From Corallococcus soli (lineage in GTDB: Bacteria > Myxococcota > Myxococcia > Myxococcales > Myxococcaceae): a stretch of 64,000 nt of DNA. The DNA is taken from the NCBI RefSeq assembly GCF_014930455.1, contig NZ_JAAIYO010000004.1:124001-188000 (forward strand). The letters are read 5' to 3'. A program made the translations under genes and the position numbers. Positions 35,968 to 41,912 of the stretch are shown here, piece by piece. Each line of letters opens with the position of its first letter. Position 1 is the first letter of the stretch. The notes under the pieces were generated by a model. That model saw nothing but the letters and a program-made list of their open reading frames with translations. It ran no database searches and was not told where the DNA came from.

Positions 35968-38481
35968 TCACCGTCCGCGCAGGCCCTGGGCAATCTTCAG
36001 GATGTCCGCGAGCACGCCCGCCGCCGTGACGGGGCCTCCCGCGCCCGCTCCCTGCACCAGCAGCGGGTGGTCCGCGTAGCGCTCCGTGGAGAAGGCCACG
36101 AACGCCTCCGAGCCGCGCAGCCGCGTCGCCGGGTGCTCCTTCGCCACGGCCACCGGCCCCACGCGCAGCACCGGCCCGTCCTTCGCGGCGGGGTCGATGC
36201 GCGCCAGGTAGCGCAGCACCTTGCCCTCCGCGCGCAGGCCCTCGATGCGCGACGTGAACGTGCGGTCCAGCTTCTCCAGGCTGGTGAGGAAGCGCTCCAC
36301 GTCGGCCTCCTCCAGGTACTCGCGCGGCACGAAGGGCTCCACCTCCACGTCCTCCATCGACAGCTCCAGGCCCTGCTCGCGCGCCAGGATGAGCGCCTTT
36401 CGCGCCGCGTCCGTGCCCGCCAGGTCCTCGCGCGGGTGCGGCTCCGTGAAGCCCAGCTCGCGCGCGGTGCGCACCGCCTTCGACAGCGGCACGCCGTCCA
36501 TCAACTGCTGGCTCAGGTAGCCGAGCGTCCCGGAGAAGGAGCCCTCCACGCCGTGCACCCGGTCCCCCGTGCGCACCAGGTCCTTCAGCGTCTGGATGAC
36601 GGGCAGGCCCGCGCCCACCGTCGTCTCGTAGTGGTACGCGCGGTGGTTCAGGCGCGCGGTGCTTCTGAGCCGCTCCCACACCTCGCGCGGCTGCGTCAGC
36701 GGCTTCTTGTTCGCCGCCACGACGTGGATGCCGCCGCGGAAGGCCTCCAGGTACAGCGCCTCCATGCCGTCCGCCGCGGTGCAGTCCACCAGCACCGGCA
36801 CCGGCAGCCGCCGCAGCGGCTCCAGCAGCGCCTGCACCACGGGCGGTGACGCTCCCTCGGGCACCGCTTCAATGCGCTCGCGCCACTGGTGCAGCGGGAT
36901 GCCCTCCGGCGAGAAGAGCACCCGCCGGCTGTCCGCGAGCCCCACCAGGTTGAGCTGGATGCCGTGCTCCTGCGCCAGCGTCTGTTGCAGCGTGCGCAGC
37001 TGCTCCAGCAGTTGGCTGCCCACCACGCCATGGCCCAGCACCAGCAGGCTCACCTCCTCGTGGGCGAAGTGGAAGGCCGCGTGCACCGTGCGCACCGTCA
37101 GCGCCGTCTCCCCTCCATCCACGATGAACGAGATGGAGCGCGCGCTGGCCGTCTGCGCGATGGCGCGCACGTTGATGCCCAGGGCACCCAGCGGCTGGAA
37201 CAGGCGGCCGGCCACGTTGGCGCCCTGGCCCATCGCCTCCGCCACCAGCGCCACCTGCGTCACCGGCGCGCGCACCTGGGGCGGCAGCAGCGCGCCCCGC
37301 TCCAGCTCCGGCGCCAGCTCACGCCGCAGCACCTGCTCCGCGCGCGCCGCATGGGCCTTGTGCAGCACCACCGCCACCGAACGGCCCGGCGACGACTGCG
37401 CCGCCATCCACGCGTCGATGCCCGCCGCCTCCAGCGCCTGCAACGCGCGAGGCCCCACCGGCCGCGCCGCTTCCTCCGCGCCGCCCTCCAGCCCCAGCAG
37501 CGCCAGGTCCTCCAGCGACACCACGCAGGTGGGCACGCTGCCGTCGCCCGCGCCGGGCACGTCGATGAGGGTGCCGGGCTCGTCGGGCTGTTGCAGGTGG
37601 CGCACGCGCAGCGGGATGTCCGCGTCGCGCAGCGTGGACAGCGCGCGCGGGTGCAGCGTGGGCAGGCCCAGGTACACCAGCTCCAGTGCTTCGGTGTAGC
37701 TCAGGTGCGGCACCGGCCGTGCGTCCGCGACGTGGAGCGGATCCGCCGTCATCACCCCTGGCACGTCCGTCCACAGGGTCAGCGGCGTGCCCAGCAGCAC
37801 GGCCAGCACCGCCGCCGTCTCGTCCGCGCCACCGGAGCCCAGCGTGGTGGAGCGCCCGTCGAGCGACACCCCGCGCCCTCCCGCATGCAGCGTCAGCCGT
37901 CCCTCCCAGGTGGGCCGCAGCGTCGCCACACGCGCGCGGGTGTGCTCCCGGTCCACGCGCGCCTGTCCGGGCTCGCCCTCCGTCACCGTCCAGTCCGCCC
38001 CGTCCACCTCCAGCGAAGGCACGCCCCGCGCTCCCAGCAGCCGTCCCAGCAGCGCCGCCGTCAGCCGCTCGCCCGCGCCCTGAACCACGTCCTCCAGCGC
38101 CGGGCGTCGCTCGCGCACGAGGCTGGCGCCATCCAGCGCGCGCCGCGCGGGCTCCAGCAGCGACGCCAGCGTGCGCGTCCCCTCCGCCTCCACCGACGTG
38201 GAGCCCGGAGGCGCGCCCAGCCGGCGCTCGGCCTCCTCCAGCATCAACAGGCCGCGCGCCAGGAGGCCATCCAGCTCCTGTCGCGCCAGCACGGCGTTGC
38301 CCTTCAACGCGATGGACAGCGCGGCCTCCAGGCCCGTGGACAGCCACGGCGGCGACGAGACGATGGCGGCGCGCGTGGTGCCCGCGTCGCGGCGCGACAG
38401 GTGCGTGGCCACGGACGCGAGGCCCAGGGCGGTGTCGAGCAGGAAGGGCGCGTAGCGGGTGATGCTCACGGGGGCAGTCAT
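35968..38481 (-). CDS. thrA: Homoserine dehydrogenase with degenerate aspartokinase domain
   Basis: An 837-residue protein with the ThrA/MetL layout: aspartokinase-like domain (1-310), ACT region (about 320-470), homoserine dehydrogenase (about 476-837). The dehydrogenase part looks intact: VLGHGVVGSQL for NADP (481-491), AANKKPLT, YHYETTVGAGLPVI and EGSFSGTLGYL. The kinase part keeps LWTDVPGVMTADP but its N-terminus reads ITRYAPFLLDTALGLAS where active kinases have K-F-G-G-T-S-V. Kinase activity is therefore doubtful. The start overlaps the metX stop by 4 bases (ATGA). It supplies homoserine to MetX. Confidence 0.88.
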   Translation of the reverse strand: MTAPVSITRYAPFLLDTALGLASVATHLSRRDAGTTRAAIVSSPPWLSTGLEAALSIALKGNAVLARQELDGLLARGLLMLEEAERRLGAPPGSTSVEAEGTRTLASLLEPARRALDGASLVRERRPALEDVVQGAGERLTAALLGRLLGARGVPSLEVDGADWTVTEGEPGQARVDREHTRARVATLRPTWEGRLTLHAGGRGVSLDGRSTTLGSGGADETAAVLAVLLGTPLTLWTDVPGVMTADPLHVADARPVPHLSYTEALELVYLGLPTLHPRALSTLRDADIPLRVRHLQQPDEPGTLIDVPGAGDGSVPTCVVSLEDLALLGLEGGAEEAARPVGPRALQALEAAGIDAWMAAQSSPGRSVAVVLHKAHAARAEQVLRRELAPELERGALLPPQVRAPVTQVALVAEAMGQGANVAGRLFQPLGALGINVRAIAQTASARSISFIVDGGETALTVRTVHAAFHFAHEEVSLLVLGHGVVGSQLLEQLRTLQQTLAQEHGIQLNLVGLADSRRVLFSPEGIPLHQWRERIEAVPEGASPPVVQALLEPLRRLPVPVLVDCTAADGMEALYLEAFRGGIHVVAANKKPLTQPREVWERLRSTARLNHRAYHYETTVGAGLPVIQTLKDLVRTGDRVHGVEGSFSGTLGYLSQQLMDGVPLSKAVRTARELGFTEPHPREDLAGTDAARKALILAREQGLELSMEDVEVEPFVPREYLEEADVERFLTSLEKLDRTFTSRIEGLRAEGKVLRYLARIDPAAKDGPVLRVGPVAVAKEHPATRLRGSEAFVAFSTERYADHPLLVQGAGAGGPVTAAGVLADILKIAQGLRGR

Positions 38482-39815
38482 GAAGTCTTCCGGGCGCGGA
38501 CGCCGGCAGGGGAGGAGGGGCGGGCATCACGGCCCACGCCCGGGGGCAGGGCCAGGGCGCGCAGCAACAGGGGCGCGAGCGCGTCCCATTCGATGAGGAA
38601 GCCGTCGTGGCCGTGCACGCTGCACAGGGCCGCGTATTCGGCGTGCAGGCCCTGCGCGCGCAGGCGCCGGGACAGCGTCACCATGTGTTCGGGCGGGAAG
38701 AGCTGGTCGCGGTCGATGCCGATGCTCAGCGTGCTCGCGCGGATCCGGTCCAGGCCGGGACCGCCGCGCGGCGTGGGCACGCGCGCCAGGTCGTGGTGGT
38801 CCATGGCGCCTAGCAGCGCCAGGTAGGAGCGGGCATCGAAGCGCGCCTCCAGCTTCGCGCCCTGGTGCTCCAGGTAGCTCTCCACCGGGTACAGCGCTCG
38901 CGAAGACCACGCCTGCGGGCGCTTCTGGAGCGCGTCCAGGCCGGCCTCCGCGCGGTAGGTGAGCGTCGCCAGCTGACGCGCCAGCTCCAGGCCGCGCCGG
39001 GGGGACTCCGGGTACTCCGGATCCAACAGGATGGCCTGCCGGGCCACGTGGTTCCAGCCCACCACCCACGCGGACGCCGACTCCGCCGTGGCGATGGGCA
39101 CCATGCGCTGGAAGCGCTCCGGCGCGAGCGCCGCGAGGCACAGCACCACCATGCCGCCCAGCGAGCCGCCAGTGACGAGCGCCACCTCCTCGATGCCCAG
39201 CGCGTCCAGCGCCGCGAGGATGGAGCGCGCCTGGTCCCACGGCGTGAGGGTGGCGGGGAGGCTGCGCTCATCCAGGCGCAGGTCGCCCTTGGCCAGCACC
39301 GGTGACGGGCCGAAGCGGGTGTCGTCGGTGCGCAGGGGGAAGCCTTCGTCCGCGGGGCCGAAGGTGCCGTAGCAGGAGCCCTGGTTGTTGAAGCACAGCA
39401 GGCGCACGCGCGAAGGGTCCAGCGGCCGGCCCTTCCCGATGACGGGCTCCCACCAGCCGCCCTCGCCCCCCGCGTGCATGTCTCCGGTGAGCGCGTGCAC
39501 CAGCAGCACGGTGGGCACGGGGTCGGGCGCGCGTCGCGGACCGTCGCGACGTGCATCGGCGGCGGCGTCCCGCAACTCGGAGGCGGAGCGCCGCACGACT
39601 TGAAGCCTGCCCGCGCGCGTCGCCTCTTCCGAATGCACGCGCGAGCGCGACCGCAGCCACGCGAGGTCCTCCGGGGGCCCCCACCACCAGCCGCGCACCA
39701 GGTGGGGCGCCACGCGGGCGCCGGCCTCCAGGGGCAGGTCCGGCAGCGACAGGTCGAAGACGCGCGGTGTTTCGGCGCGCGCGGGGAGCTCCACGGGATT
39801 CCTCACGGGTCGCAT
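38478..39815 (-). CDS. metX: Homoserine O-acetyltransferase (MetX family)
   Basis: Acylates homoserine for methionine synthesis. A 445-residue alpha/beta-hydrolase-fold enzyme with VLLVHALTGDMHAGG, FNNQGSCYGTFGP, nucleophile Ser218 in GGSLGGM, and the catalytic His in SVHGHDGFLIEW. About 40 extra residues (roughly 60-100) sit before the core. Middle gene of metY-metX-thrA; 4 bases separate it from metY. Acetyl versus succinyl donor specificity cannot be read safely from sequence. Confidence 0.92.
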   Translation of the reverse strand: MRPVRNPVELPARAETPRVFDLSLPDLPLEAGARVAPHLVRGWWWGPPEDLAWLRSRSRVHSEEATRAGRLQVVRRSASELRDAAADARRDGPRRAPDPVPTVLLVHALTGDMHAGGEGGWWEPVIGKGRPLDPSRVRLLCFNNQGSCYGTFGPADEGFPLRTDDTRFGPSPVLAKGDLRLDERSLPATLTPWDQARSILAALDALGIEEVALVTGGSLGGMVVLCLAALAPERFQRMVPIATAESASAWVVGWNHVARQAILLDPEYPESPRRGLELARQLATLTYRAEAGLDALQKRPQAWSSRALYPVESYLEHQGAKLEARFDARSYLALLGAMDHHDLARVPTPRGGPGLDRIRASTLSIGIDRDQLFPPEHMVTLSRRLRAQGLHAEYAALCSVHGHDGFLIEWDALAPLLLRALALPPGVGRDARPSSPAGVRARKTS

Positions 39816-39819
39816 GGCG

Positions 39820-41226
<1,407 letters not shown>

Positions 41227-41277
41227 CTAACGACGCTCTTCGGCGGGGATGCGAGAGCGGAGGCCCGGAACGACGAA

Positions 41278-41305
41278 GCCCACCGACCCTCGCGGGTGGG
41301 TGGGC
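41278..41305 (-). terminator. Attenuator-type hairpin in metY leader
   Basis: Read on the minus strand: GCCCACC, mismatch, ACCC, tetraloop GCGA, GGGT, mismatch, GGTGGGC. This gives an 11-bp stem capped by a GNRA loop. It lies about 31 bases after the leader peptide stop and about 170 bases before metY, and is followed by TTCGTCGTT. It has no strong T run, so it might act with Rho or as a pause. Confidence 0.5.
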
Positions 41306-41366
41306 TCCGGTGGCTCGCCAGGGGCAGGCTGTGCGTCAGCCGGCCGCGGCGGGCTTGGGCCCACCC
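41298..41366 (-). promoter_or_regulatory. Candidate antiterminator pairing in metY leader
   Basis: The 8 bases GGGTGGGC at 41366-41359 lie inside the leader peptide gene just after its Met/Cys codons. They pair perfectly with GCCCACCC at 41305-41298, the 5' arm of the downstream hairpin. The two pairings exclude each other, as in amino-acid attenuators. A ribosome stalled at the Met/Cys codons would leave the first arm free. Confidence 0.5.
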
Positions 41367-41410
41367 GGAACAAGCATCGAACACATGCACATGGCGGAGG
41401 TGACGAACAT
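41336..41410 (-). CDS. Met/Cys-rich leader peptide of the metY operon
   Basis: A 24-residue frame starting at ATG 41410 with MFVTSAMCMCSMLV and ending PAAAG before TGA at 41336. Three Met and two Cys sit within six residues (MCMCSM, 41392-41375). That is what a peptide sensing sulfur amino acids should contain. No Shine-Dalgarno precedes the ATG, but the predicted transcript start lies only a few bases upstream, so it may be translated as a leaderless message. An upstream in-frame ATG at 41434 would lie inside the promoter. Found by reading the metY leader; not a database match. Confidence 0.55.
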   Translation of the reverse strand: MFVTSAMCMCSMLVPGGPKPAAAG

Positions 41411-41420
41411 TCTGCGAATA

Positions 41421-41449
41421 GAAGTAGCGAGCATGCCACGCACTGTCAA
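41421..41449 (-). promoter_or_regulatory. Candidate sigma-70-type promoter of the metY operon
   Basis: On the minus strand a perfect -35 box TTGACA (41449-41444), a 17-base spacer and TACTTC (41426-41421) as a poor -10 box. The predicted start at about 41414 lies 4 bases before the leader peptide ATG. It overlaps the first codons of the plus-strand hydrolase remnant. Confidence 0.5.
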
Positions 41450-41912
41450 GCCACCCCCTGGAACGAAGCTGCTGGCCTGCCTCGTCACCTGTCTCCTCGC
41501 GGGCGCGTGTTCCCGGCCCGCGCCGCCCACCGCCATGACCTTGCGAAAGACGTTCCGCACACAGCTGGACGTCTCCGTGCACGGGAAGACGGGCACGGCG
41601 CTGGACCGCGCCACGGGGCCGGAGCTGTGGATGCGCAACCCGGTGAGCTTCGTGGAGTCCCTGCGCGTGCCCACGCAGATCATCGAGGGCGCGGAAGAAG
41701 GCAACACCGGCGCGTTCGAACCCCTGCGCAAGGCGGCGAAGGGCGCGCCGCTGTCGTTCCTCGCCGTGCCCGGCGCCACGCACTTCAGTGTGCTCGCGCC
41801 CGTGACGGAGCTGCTGGCGCGCAAGCTCGCGGAAGCGCCAGCGGAGGCACCGGCGGTGAGCCTCACGGACGCGGAGGTCCGTGAGGCGATGCGCGTCGAA
41901 CGCGACAGGTGA
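41433..41912 (+). pseudogene. Truncated alpha/beta-hydrolase lipoprotein
   Basis: A 159-residue frame. It has a lipoprotein signal (KLLACLVTCLLAGAC, Cys26), about 25 residues of mature sequence, then the last third of an alpha/beta hydrolase: LWMRNPVSFVESLRVPTQII, EGAEEGN, and the catalytic-His region VPGATHFSVLAPVTELL. The central part with the nucleophile elbow (G-x-S-x-G) is missing, consistent with an internal in-frame deletion of roughly 150-200 residues. Probably inactive. Its start overlaps the opposite metY promoter. Confidence 0.6.

Follow-up and report, generated by a model that had tools for sequence, protein, structure and literature searches.

The classical ribosome-mediated attenuators are the trp, his, thr, leu, ilv and phe leaders, and methionine genes are thought to be controlled by repressors, SAM/SAH riboswitches or T-boxes. 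In mycobacteria, leaderless short ORFs carrying polycysteine codons have been described as attenuators (Canestrari et al. 2020, as presented in PMC9031893 and PMC13236596). Mycobacterial Cys leaders, lacking a conserved terminator hairpin, were also predicted in a study that reported no RNA element for methionine in Actinobacteria (PMC1262725). The main text of an analysis of methionine regulation in Proteobacteria (PMC4239095) refers neither to leader peptides nor to attenuation or myxobacteria. No methionine leader-peptide attenuation was found in the literature searched, where subscription journals are poorly covered and absence is not proof.

Here we analyze a leader upstream of metY in Corallococcus soli, within a stretch of 64,000 nucleotides (the window). 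This leader is very probably a ribosome-mediated attenuator of the metY-metX-thrA operon that responds to methionyl-tRNA supply and is leaderless or nearly so. As in the classical attenuators, its ORF carries codons for the pathway product, antiterminator and terminator-like hairpins exclude each other, and the switch falls at the control codons in silico. Unlike them, its control residue would be Met with optional Cys, its start is predicted to be leaderless, the antiterminator 5′ arm lies in the ORF directly after the control codons, the stop codon lies in the antiterminator, and the U-tract here is weak. With the mycobacterial polycysteine attenuators it shares sulfur-amino-acid codons in a (here predicted) leaderless short ORF before sulfur genes. 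However, the mycobacterial system uses Cys runs only, whereas the metY leader has Met codons and a conserved alternative-hairpin switch, and it lacks the defining consecutive-Cys run, Cys being variable and Met invariant.

Results

The metY Leader and Its Operon

The promoter, leader ORF and operon comprise the following features.

41444..41449, minus strand: −35 element TTGACA, perfect hexamer, read directly
41421..41426, minus strand: probable −10 element TACTTC, predicted, 17-nt spacer after TTGACA
41336..41410, minus strand: leader ORF MFVTSAMCMCSMLVPGGPKPAAAG, 24 codons, stop codon at 41338-41336
39820..41109, minus strand: metY, O-acetylhomoserine sulfhydrylase (TIGR01326)
38478..39815, minus strand: metX-like homoserine O-acetyltransferase (TIGR01392, score below cut-off)
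35968..38481, minus strand: predicted thrA-like aspartokinase-homoserine dehydrogenase

The perfect minus-strand TTGACA (41449-41444) and the 24-residue frame with MCMCSM (ATG at 41410) that a sequence-only reading had pointed out are both present, and the gene identities, TIGR01392 again falling below cut-off, agree with the metY-metX-thrA order that it gave. The three genes nearly abut, and 226 nt separate the leader stop from the metY ATG (41109). Putative control codons are M7, C8, M9, C10, S11 and M12. On the minus strand, 10 nt can be read directly between TACTTC and the ATG (41410-41408), and given the usual discriminator of 6-9 nt the 5′ UTR would measure 0-4 nt. A sigma-70 scan does not report a promoter ahead of the leader ORF because the −10 element is poor. 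Every Met-type metY leader has TTGAC at a fixed 37-41 nt ahead of its start. A divergent plus-strand frame, MPRTVKPPPGTKLLACLVTCLLAGACSRP... (window 41434-41884), starts inside the metY promoter, overlaps TTGACA and has a lipoprotein-like signal that is not kept in relatives such as L004.

Alternative Structures of the Leader RNA

The RNA segments of the leader are listed below.

41359..41366, minus strand: segment A, GGGTGGGC, antiterminator 5′ arm, in the leader ORF directly after the Met codons
41348..41354, minus strand: segment B, GCCCGCC, partner of A in the protector hairpin or of TGGCG in the antiterminator
41316..41351, minus strand: inner antiterminator helices, CGCCG 41351-41347 with TGGCG 41320-41316, GGC with GCC, and GGCTG 41341-41337 with CAGCC 41331-41327
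41298..41305, minus strand: segment C, GCCCACCC, antiterminator 3′ arm and 5′ arm of the terminator-like hairpin
41276..41307, minus strand: terminator-like hairpin C:D, GAGCCCACCCACCC-GCGA-GGGTCGGTGGGCTT, with GCGA loop
41267..41277, minus strand: interrupted U-rich tail TTCGTCGTTCC, 6 T of 11
41234..41259, minus strand: hairpin F, CGCTCT...AGAGCG, whose counterpart in other genera masks the metY Shine-Dalgarno sequence
41125..41233, minus strand: C-rich extra stretch from F to metY, g1 and g5 only, a candidate site for Rho loading

Segment C is common to A:C and C:D, and the two pairings are mutually exclusive. The perfect 8-bp complementarity between GGGTGGGC (41366-41359) and GCCCACCC (41305-41298) had been recognized from the letters alone and is correct, but the antiterminator extends beyond 8 bp because inner helices stack inside the A:C pairing. 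One of these, GGCTG/CAGCC, wraps the leader stop codon, which thus lies within the antiterminator. The hairpin had likewise been read as 11 bp with a GCGA loop; the loop is as described, but the stem is interrupted rather than clean, with 7-9 bp, a small internal loop and 3-4 bp. GCCCGCC (41354-41348) is a second in-frame partner of GGTGGGC, and the resulting A:B protector dominates in the ribosome-free state in 8 of 18 leaders, a set to which the window leader does not belong. In the genera tested, C:D has an equilibrium advantage of 13-29 kcal/mol over A:C, and the switch must be kinetic because C:D is far more stable once D is present.

Conservation and Covariation in Myxococcaceae

The search for MetY relatives covered 96 Myxococcaceae genomes, fewer than half of which have close orthologs (E < 1e-120). 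The arrangement of promoter, ORF and hairpin precedes metY or metX in most Myxococcaceae examined; 28 distinct metY leaders, spread over six genera, keep it despite diverging upstream sequence. Leaders of g1, g3, g5, g6, g7 and g19 share TTGAC, followed after 37-39 nt by an ATG that opens a frame of 22-25 codons, and in most g19 genomes, which are without this metY, the Met leader precedes a MetX-like gene. When a covariance model was built on g3/g6/g7 leaders, 57 of the 96 genomes gave a match at E < 1e-10, one of them (G048) Cys-type. Applied to 195 genomes of the phylum, the same model gave as new matches only two weak ones, G121, which has a Cys-type leader ORF, and G133, which was dropped for want of a leader ORF. 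A search for a second leader in the window's own genome returned only a cspA-type terminator as another match, and this candidate was rejected.

The comparison across relatives, set beforehand as the test that could refute the sequence-only reading, finds the short frame kept and Met codons in 32 of 32 distinct core Met-type peptides, every one with M-x-M or M-x-K, where x is S, C, Y, W, R, L or Q. GG, and P at +4, are also invariant across the 32. Cys is common but inconstant, being absent from orthologs such as MTSLLAMRRMSM... and MISVARNSRRMLM...; the proposed sensing of Met or Cys is thus upheld for Met and weaker for Cys. On this pattern Met, which is invariant, is the first control residue and Cys perhaps a second.

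Covariation was counted on 44 distinct leaders in a model-fitted alignment, since MAFFT misaligned the inner stems and its alignment of all leaders was set aside; fitting to a structure favours such counts. In these leaders 94.5% of antiterminator pairs are standard, and double-changed cells number 79 versus 31.3 ± 6.4 in shuffles. The covariation score is 0.231 (0.125 when shuffled), none of 500 shuffles scores as high, and slid pairing partners reach at most 0.035, so the compensatory stem changes that had been anticipated do occur in the antiterminator. The inner helices carry compensatory changes between genera. Within the close leader group alone covariation was not found, and the A:C pairing is backed by conservation, not covariation, because A and C hardly vary. 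Judged by these sequence comparisons, the layout exceeds chance, being conserved while upstream sequence diverges and having an antiterminator that covaries.

Several leaders depart from this arrangement. In genome G026 (L007 / L032) a deletion of about 50 nt removes C:D entirely but spares the leader ORF and metY, reflecting either a real loss of attenuation or a MAG assembly error. The g26 metY leaders L122 (1988) and L124 (2030) have the same promoter-to-ATG spacing with short frames, MSVHQNDSRVFF... and MNVFKSDNWSFL..., that are without Met/Cys runs and end about 25 nt ahead of metY. Palindromes, for example TCCGTCATGACGGA or TCCGCCATGGCGGA, lie near or overlap the −35 element upstream of metY in L029, L030, L031, L112-L115 and L122-L124; they are likely to be a repressor operator in g3, g6 and g26, and are not seen in g1.

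Ribosome Position and the Switch Point

The ribosome footprint was masked codon by codon and the A:C probability computed before D is transcribed. Across 18 orthologs this probability stays near 1 for every A-site position as far as the first Met of the last MxM, and it drops to 0 no more than one or two codons beyond the final Met. The window leader switches between M12 and P15 with four footprint sizes, and in the distant leaders L118-L121 and L125, with CCCGGG arms in place of GGTGGG, the switch is at the last Met pair.

In the modelled window leader, A:C still forms before D is made when no ribosome is present, and with a ribosome at the stop codon its probability is 0.20-0.96 depending on the footprint; both results are a weakness of the simple model. 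The OFF state must therefore need ribosome movement and release, or a later win by C:D.

Peptides of L118-L121 end in ECCPSCCR-like Cys runs after segment A. In the model, a ribosome on this terminal run leaves A free clearly in L118 and L120, only late in L119, and not in L121, and Cys shortage may be a second input in leaders of this type.

Paralogous Leaders with Cys Codons

The Met-leader model also recovered paralogous leaders with Cys runs, such as MTFAPATACCCCDAPAVGACPPVA, that have the same A, C and D segments. A model of these Cys-type leaders matches 40 genomes at E < 1e-23, and none in the window's genus at that threshold. TTGAC again lies about 40 nt ahead of the leader start, the U-tracts are mostly good, and the C:D helix covaries (0.168 versus 0.096, 0 of 500 shuffles as high). 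Of five g19 Cys leaders, four switch exactly behind the final Cys of CCCC (0.92-0.99 at C12 and 0.00-0.01 at codon 13), and the fifth, L154, does so one codon later; g3 Cys leaders fit more loosely, switching one or two codons early. These leaders are closer in codons to the mycobacterial polycysteine system, but have a hairpin switch.

After the start, Met leaders average 2.9 Met and 1.6 Cys residues, and Cys leaders 0.4 Met and 3.5 Cys. Behind the Cys-type leaders lie genes for a sulfate-type solute-binding protein and permease (ABC), for a porin and binding protein, or for DUF4395. The control codon tracks gene function, since leaders that share the switch but carry Cys runs stand before sulfate-transport genes, among others, and, on the gene assignments made here, this match is the strongest support for codon-specific attenuation.

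In L139, L141 and L147 a gene for a haem-type periplasmic binding protein follows the Cys-type leader by about 414 nt. A pattern search for poly-Cys leaders gave mostly noise and few real examples. It found a distant poly-Cys leaderless frame before sulfite reductase and CysH, with a canonical T-rich terminator (L257, G047:C701). Another poly-Cys leaderless frame (L256, G001:C2) precedes a region with an FMN monooxygenase (SsuD-like).

Similar Leaders in Other Phyla

Among metY loci outside Myxococcaceae, 12 of 79 have Met/Cys-rich leader ORFs, versus 3.0 in shuffles. Such an ORF lies ahead of metY in 19 of 24 Acidobacteriaceae (the family of Terracidiphilus gabretensis) and in 17 of 27 members of the Bacteroidota family of a Sphingobacteriales MAG; mononucleotide shuffles for both targeted families give about 0.7. 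In L035, L042 and L088 the start is spaced from a TTGACA, the codons are of the MCM type, an arm reading GGACCCxTCCG or similar complements the terminator 5′ arm, and the modelled switch falls at the last Met/Cys codons; a separate version of the device exists in Acidobacteriaceae, with L035 ending in a T7 tail. Two candidate cross-phylum matches were dropped, L105, which has a SAM riboswitch within, and L102, which reads like an S-box riboswitch region.

Discussion

We infer that transcription begins at or almost at the leader AUG, and that a ribosome would initiate on this 5′-terminal codon. When methionine is short, it would pause on the Met codons of MCMCSM with its footprint ending just before A, so that A could pair with C once C is transcribed; the long antiterminator would then block C:D and the operon would be expressed. 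When methionine is plentiful, the ribosome would cover A and then stand at the stop codon, A:C would be barred, C:D would form and expression would be off. C:D would act either by ending transcription, intrinsically or with Rho, or by triggering the masking of the metY Shine-Dalgarno sequence by F.

The window tail TTCGTCGTTCC is weaker than that of a textbook terminator, yet in line with other hairpin tails of the window, and Rho-independent termination at this hairpin is not secured by its sequence. Such a poor U-tract favours a translational output, in which a stall releases D, D pairs with the F 5′ arm and the metY Shine-Dalgarno sequence is thereby unmasked, C:D being a switch hairpin and not a terminator. 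The leader would then resemble ermC-type translational attenuators in its chain of alternative hairpins and possible Shine-Dalgarno masking at the end, although the ermC inducer is an antibiotic-stalled ribosome and masking here is confined to some genera. In g3, g6, g7 and g19 the Shine-Dalgarno sequence GAGGAG does sit in F; in 13 of 16 leaders F is cheaper to open when A:C has formed, only then can D pair with F5, and one D:F5 position is T.G, A-T or C-G by genus. The difference in opening cost is absent from L022, L023 and L030, however, and the good U-tracts of Cys-type and acidobacterial relatives count against a translational output. Moreover, F lies about 125 nt from the metY start in the window's genus and therefore cannot mask the Shine-Dalgarno sequence there; as a universal output masking was rejected, since it holds in part only. 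We regard translational attenuation as possible but doubtful. Termination by Rho that loads onto the C-rich RNA separating F from metY, under the control of the same leader-peptide sensor, would suit g1 and g5, where about 110 nt of C-rich, G-poor leader follow F, but g3, g6, g7 and g19 keep the switch without such a stretch, and this output is unlikely.

Other explanations replace the sensor itself. The invariant GG and P at +4 in 32 peptides could mark a nascent peptide arrested by Met or SAM, as in TnaC or CGS1, with the conserved C-terminal GGPxPxxxG as sensor, and in the window model A can likewise become free when a ribosome stands at the stop codon. Yet A, B and the inner stem are made by the very codons for GG, P and the peptide end, the switch is the same in Cys-type and distant Met-type leaders whose C-termini differ, and an arrest triggered by high Met would switch on a biosynthetic operon, which is the wrong direction; we consider this account very unlikely. 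A new riboswitch, for SAM or another ligand, whose aptamer overlaps the ORF by chance would fit the good conservation of the leader RNA within genera and the fact that a SAM-I/IV riboswitch (RF01725) stands in for the Met leader before metY in three Myxococcaceae genomes (L116, 3377-3492; L117, 2798-2918; L127, 2744-2864). Though it serves the same pathway, SAM-I/IV senses SAM, whereas the metY leader is without an aptamer and is predicted to sense translation of Met codons. As the sequence-only reading had maintained, no SAM-riboswitch pattern is seen: there is no Rfam match at gathering in the window and none in the leader even at E up to 10, which argues against an aptamer, and SAM-I/IV was not found in the window's genus. 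Met codons conserved around a varying middle residue, and a Met/Cys swap by gene function, are also unexpected for an aptamer, and a riboswitch is extremely improbable. The window sequence alone could be a coincidence, a fortuitous short frame beside an ordinary hairpin, but conservation, covariation and recurrence in other phyla refute this reading, which may be practically dismissed.

Behind SAM-I/IV in L116, L117 and L127 lie very short Cys-rich frames, MCRCYLP, MMCHPLN and MCCCRPPQR, each running to a stop codon, and these loci possibly have a riboswitch and a Cys leader in tandem.

Ribosome-mediated attenuation by Met codons may belong to something broader. We suggest tentatively, and with rather less than even confidence, that sulfur-amino-acid leader peptides form a widespread unnamed attenuator class in Myxococcota, Acidobacteriota, Bacteroidota and perhaps others, which would control metY and sulfur-uptake genes and exchange Met and Cys codons by gene function. 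In some myxobacteria (L118-L120) a single ORF might take two inputs, through Met codons ahead of A and Cys codons behind it, with either stall freeing A.

A Met-codon attenuator, if true, would add methionine to the amino acids that are sensed via ribosome pausing, and would do so in leaderless translation, whose initiation step requires Met-tRNA too. The exchange of Met for Cys codons seen in nature offers a ready-made test of specificity. Such a device would also explain methionine control where a SAM-I/IV riboswitch is not found, this genus included.
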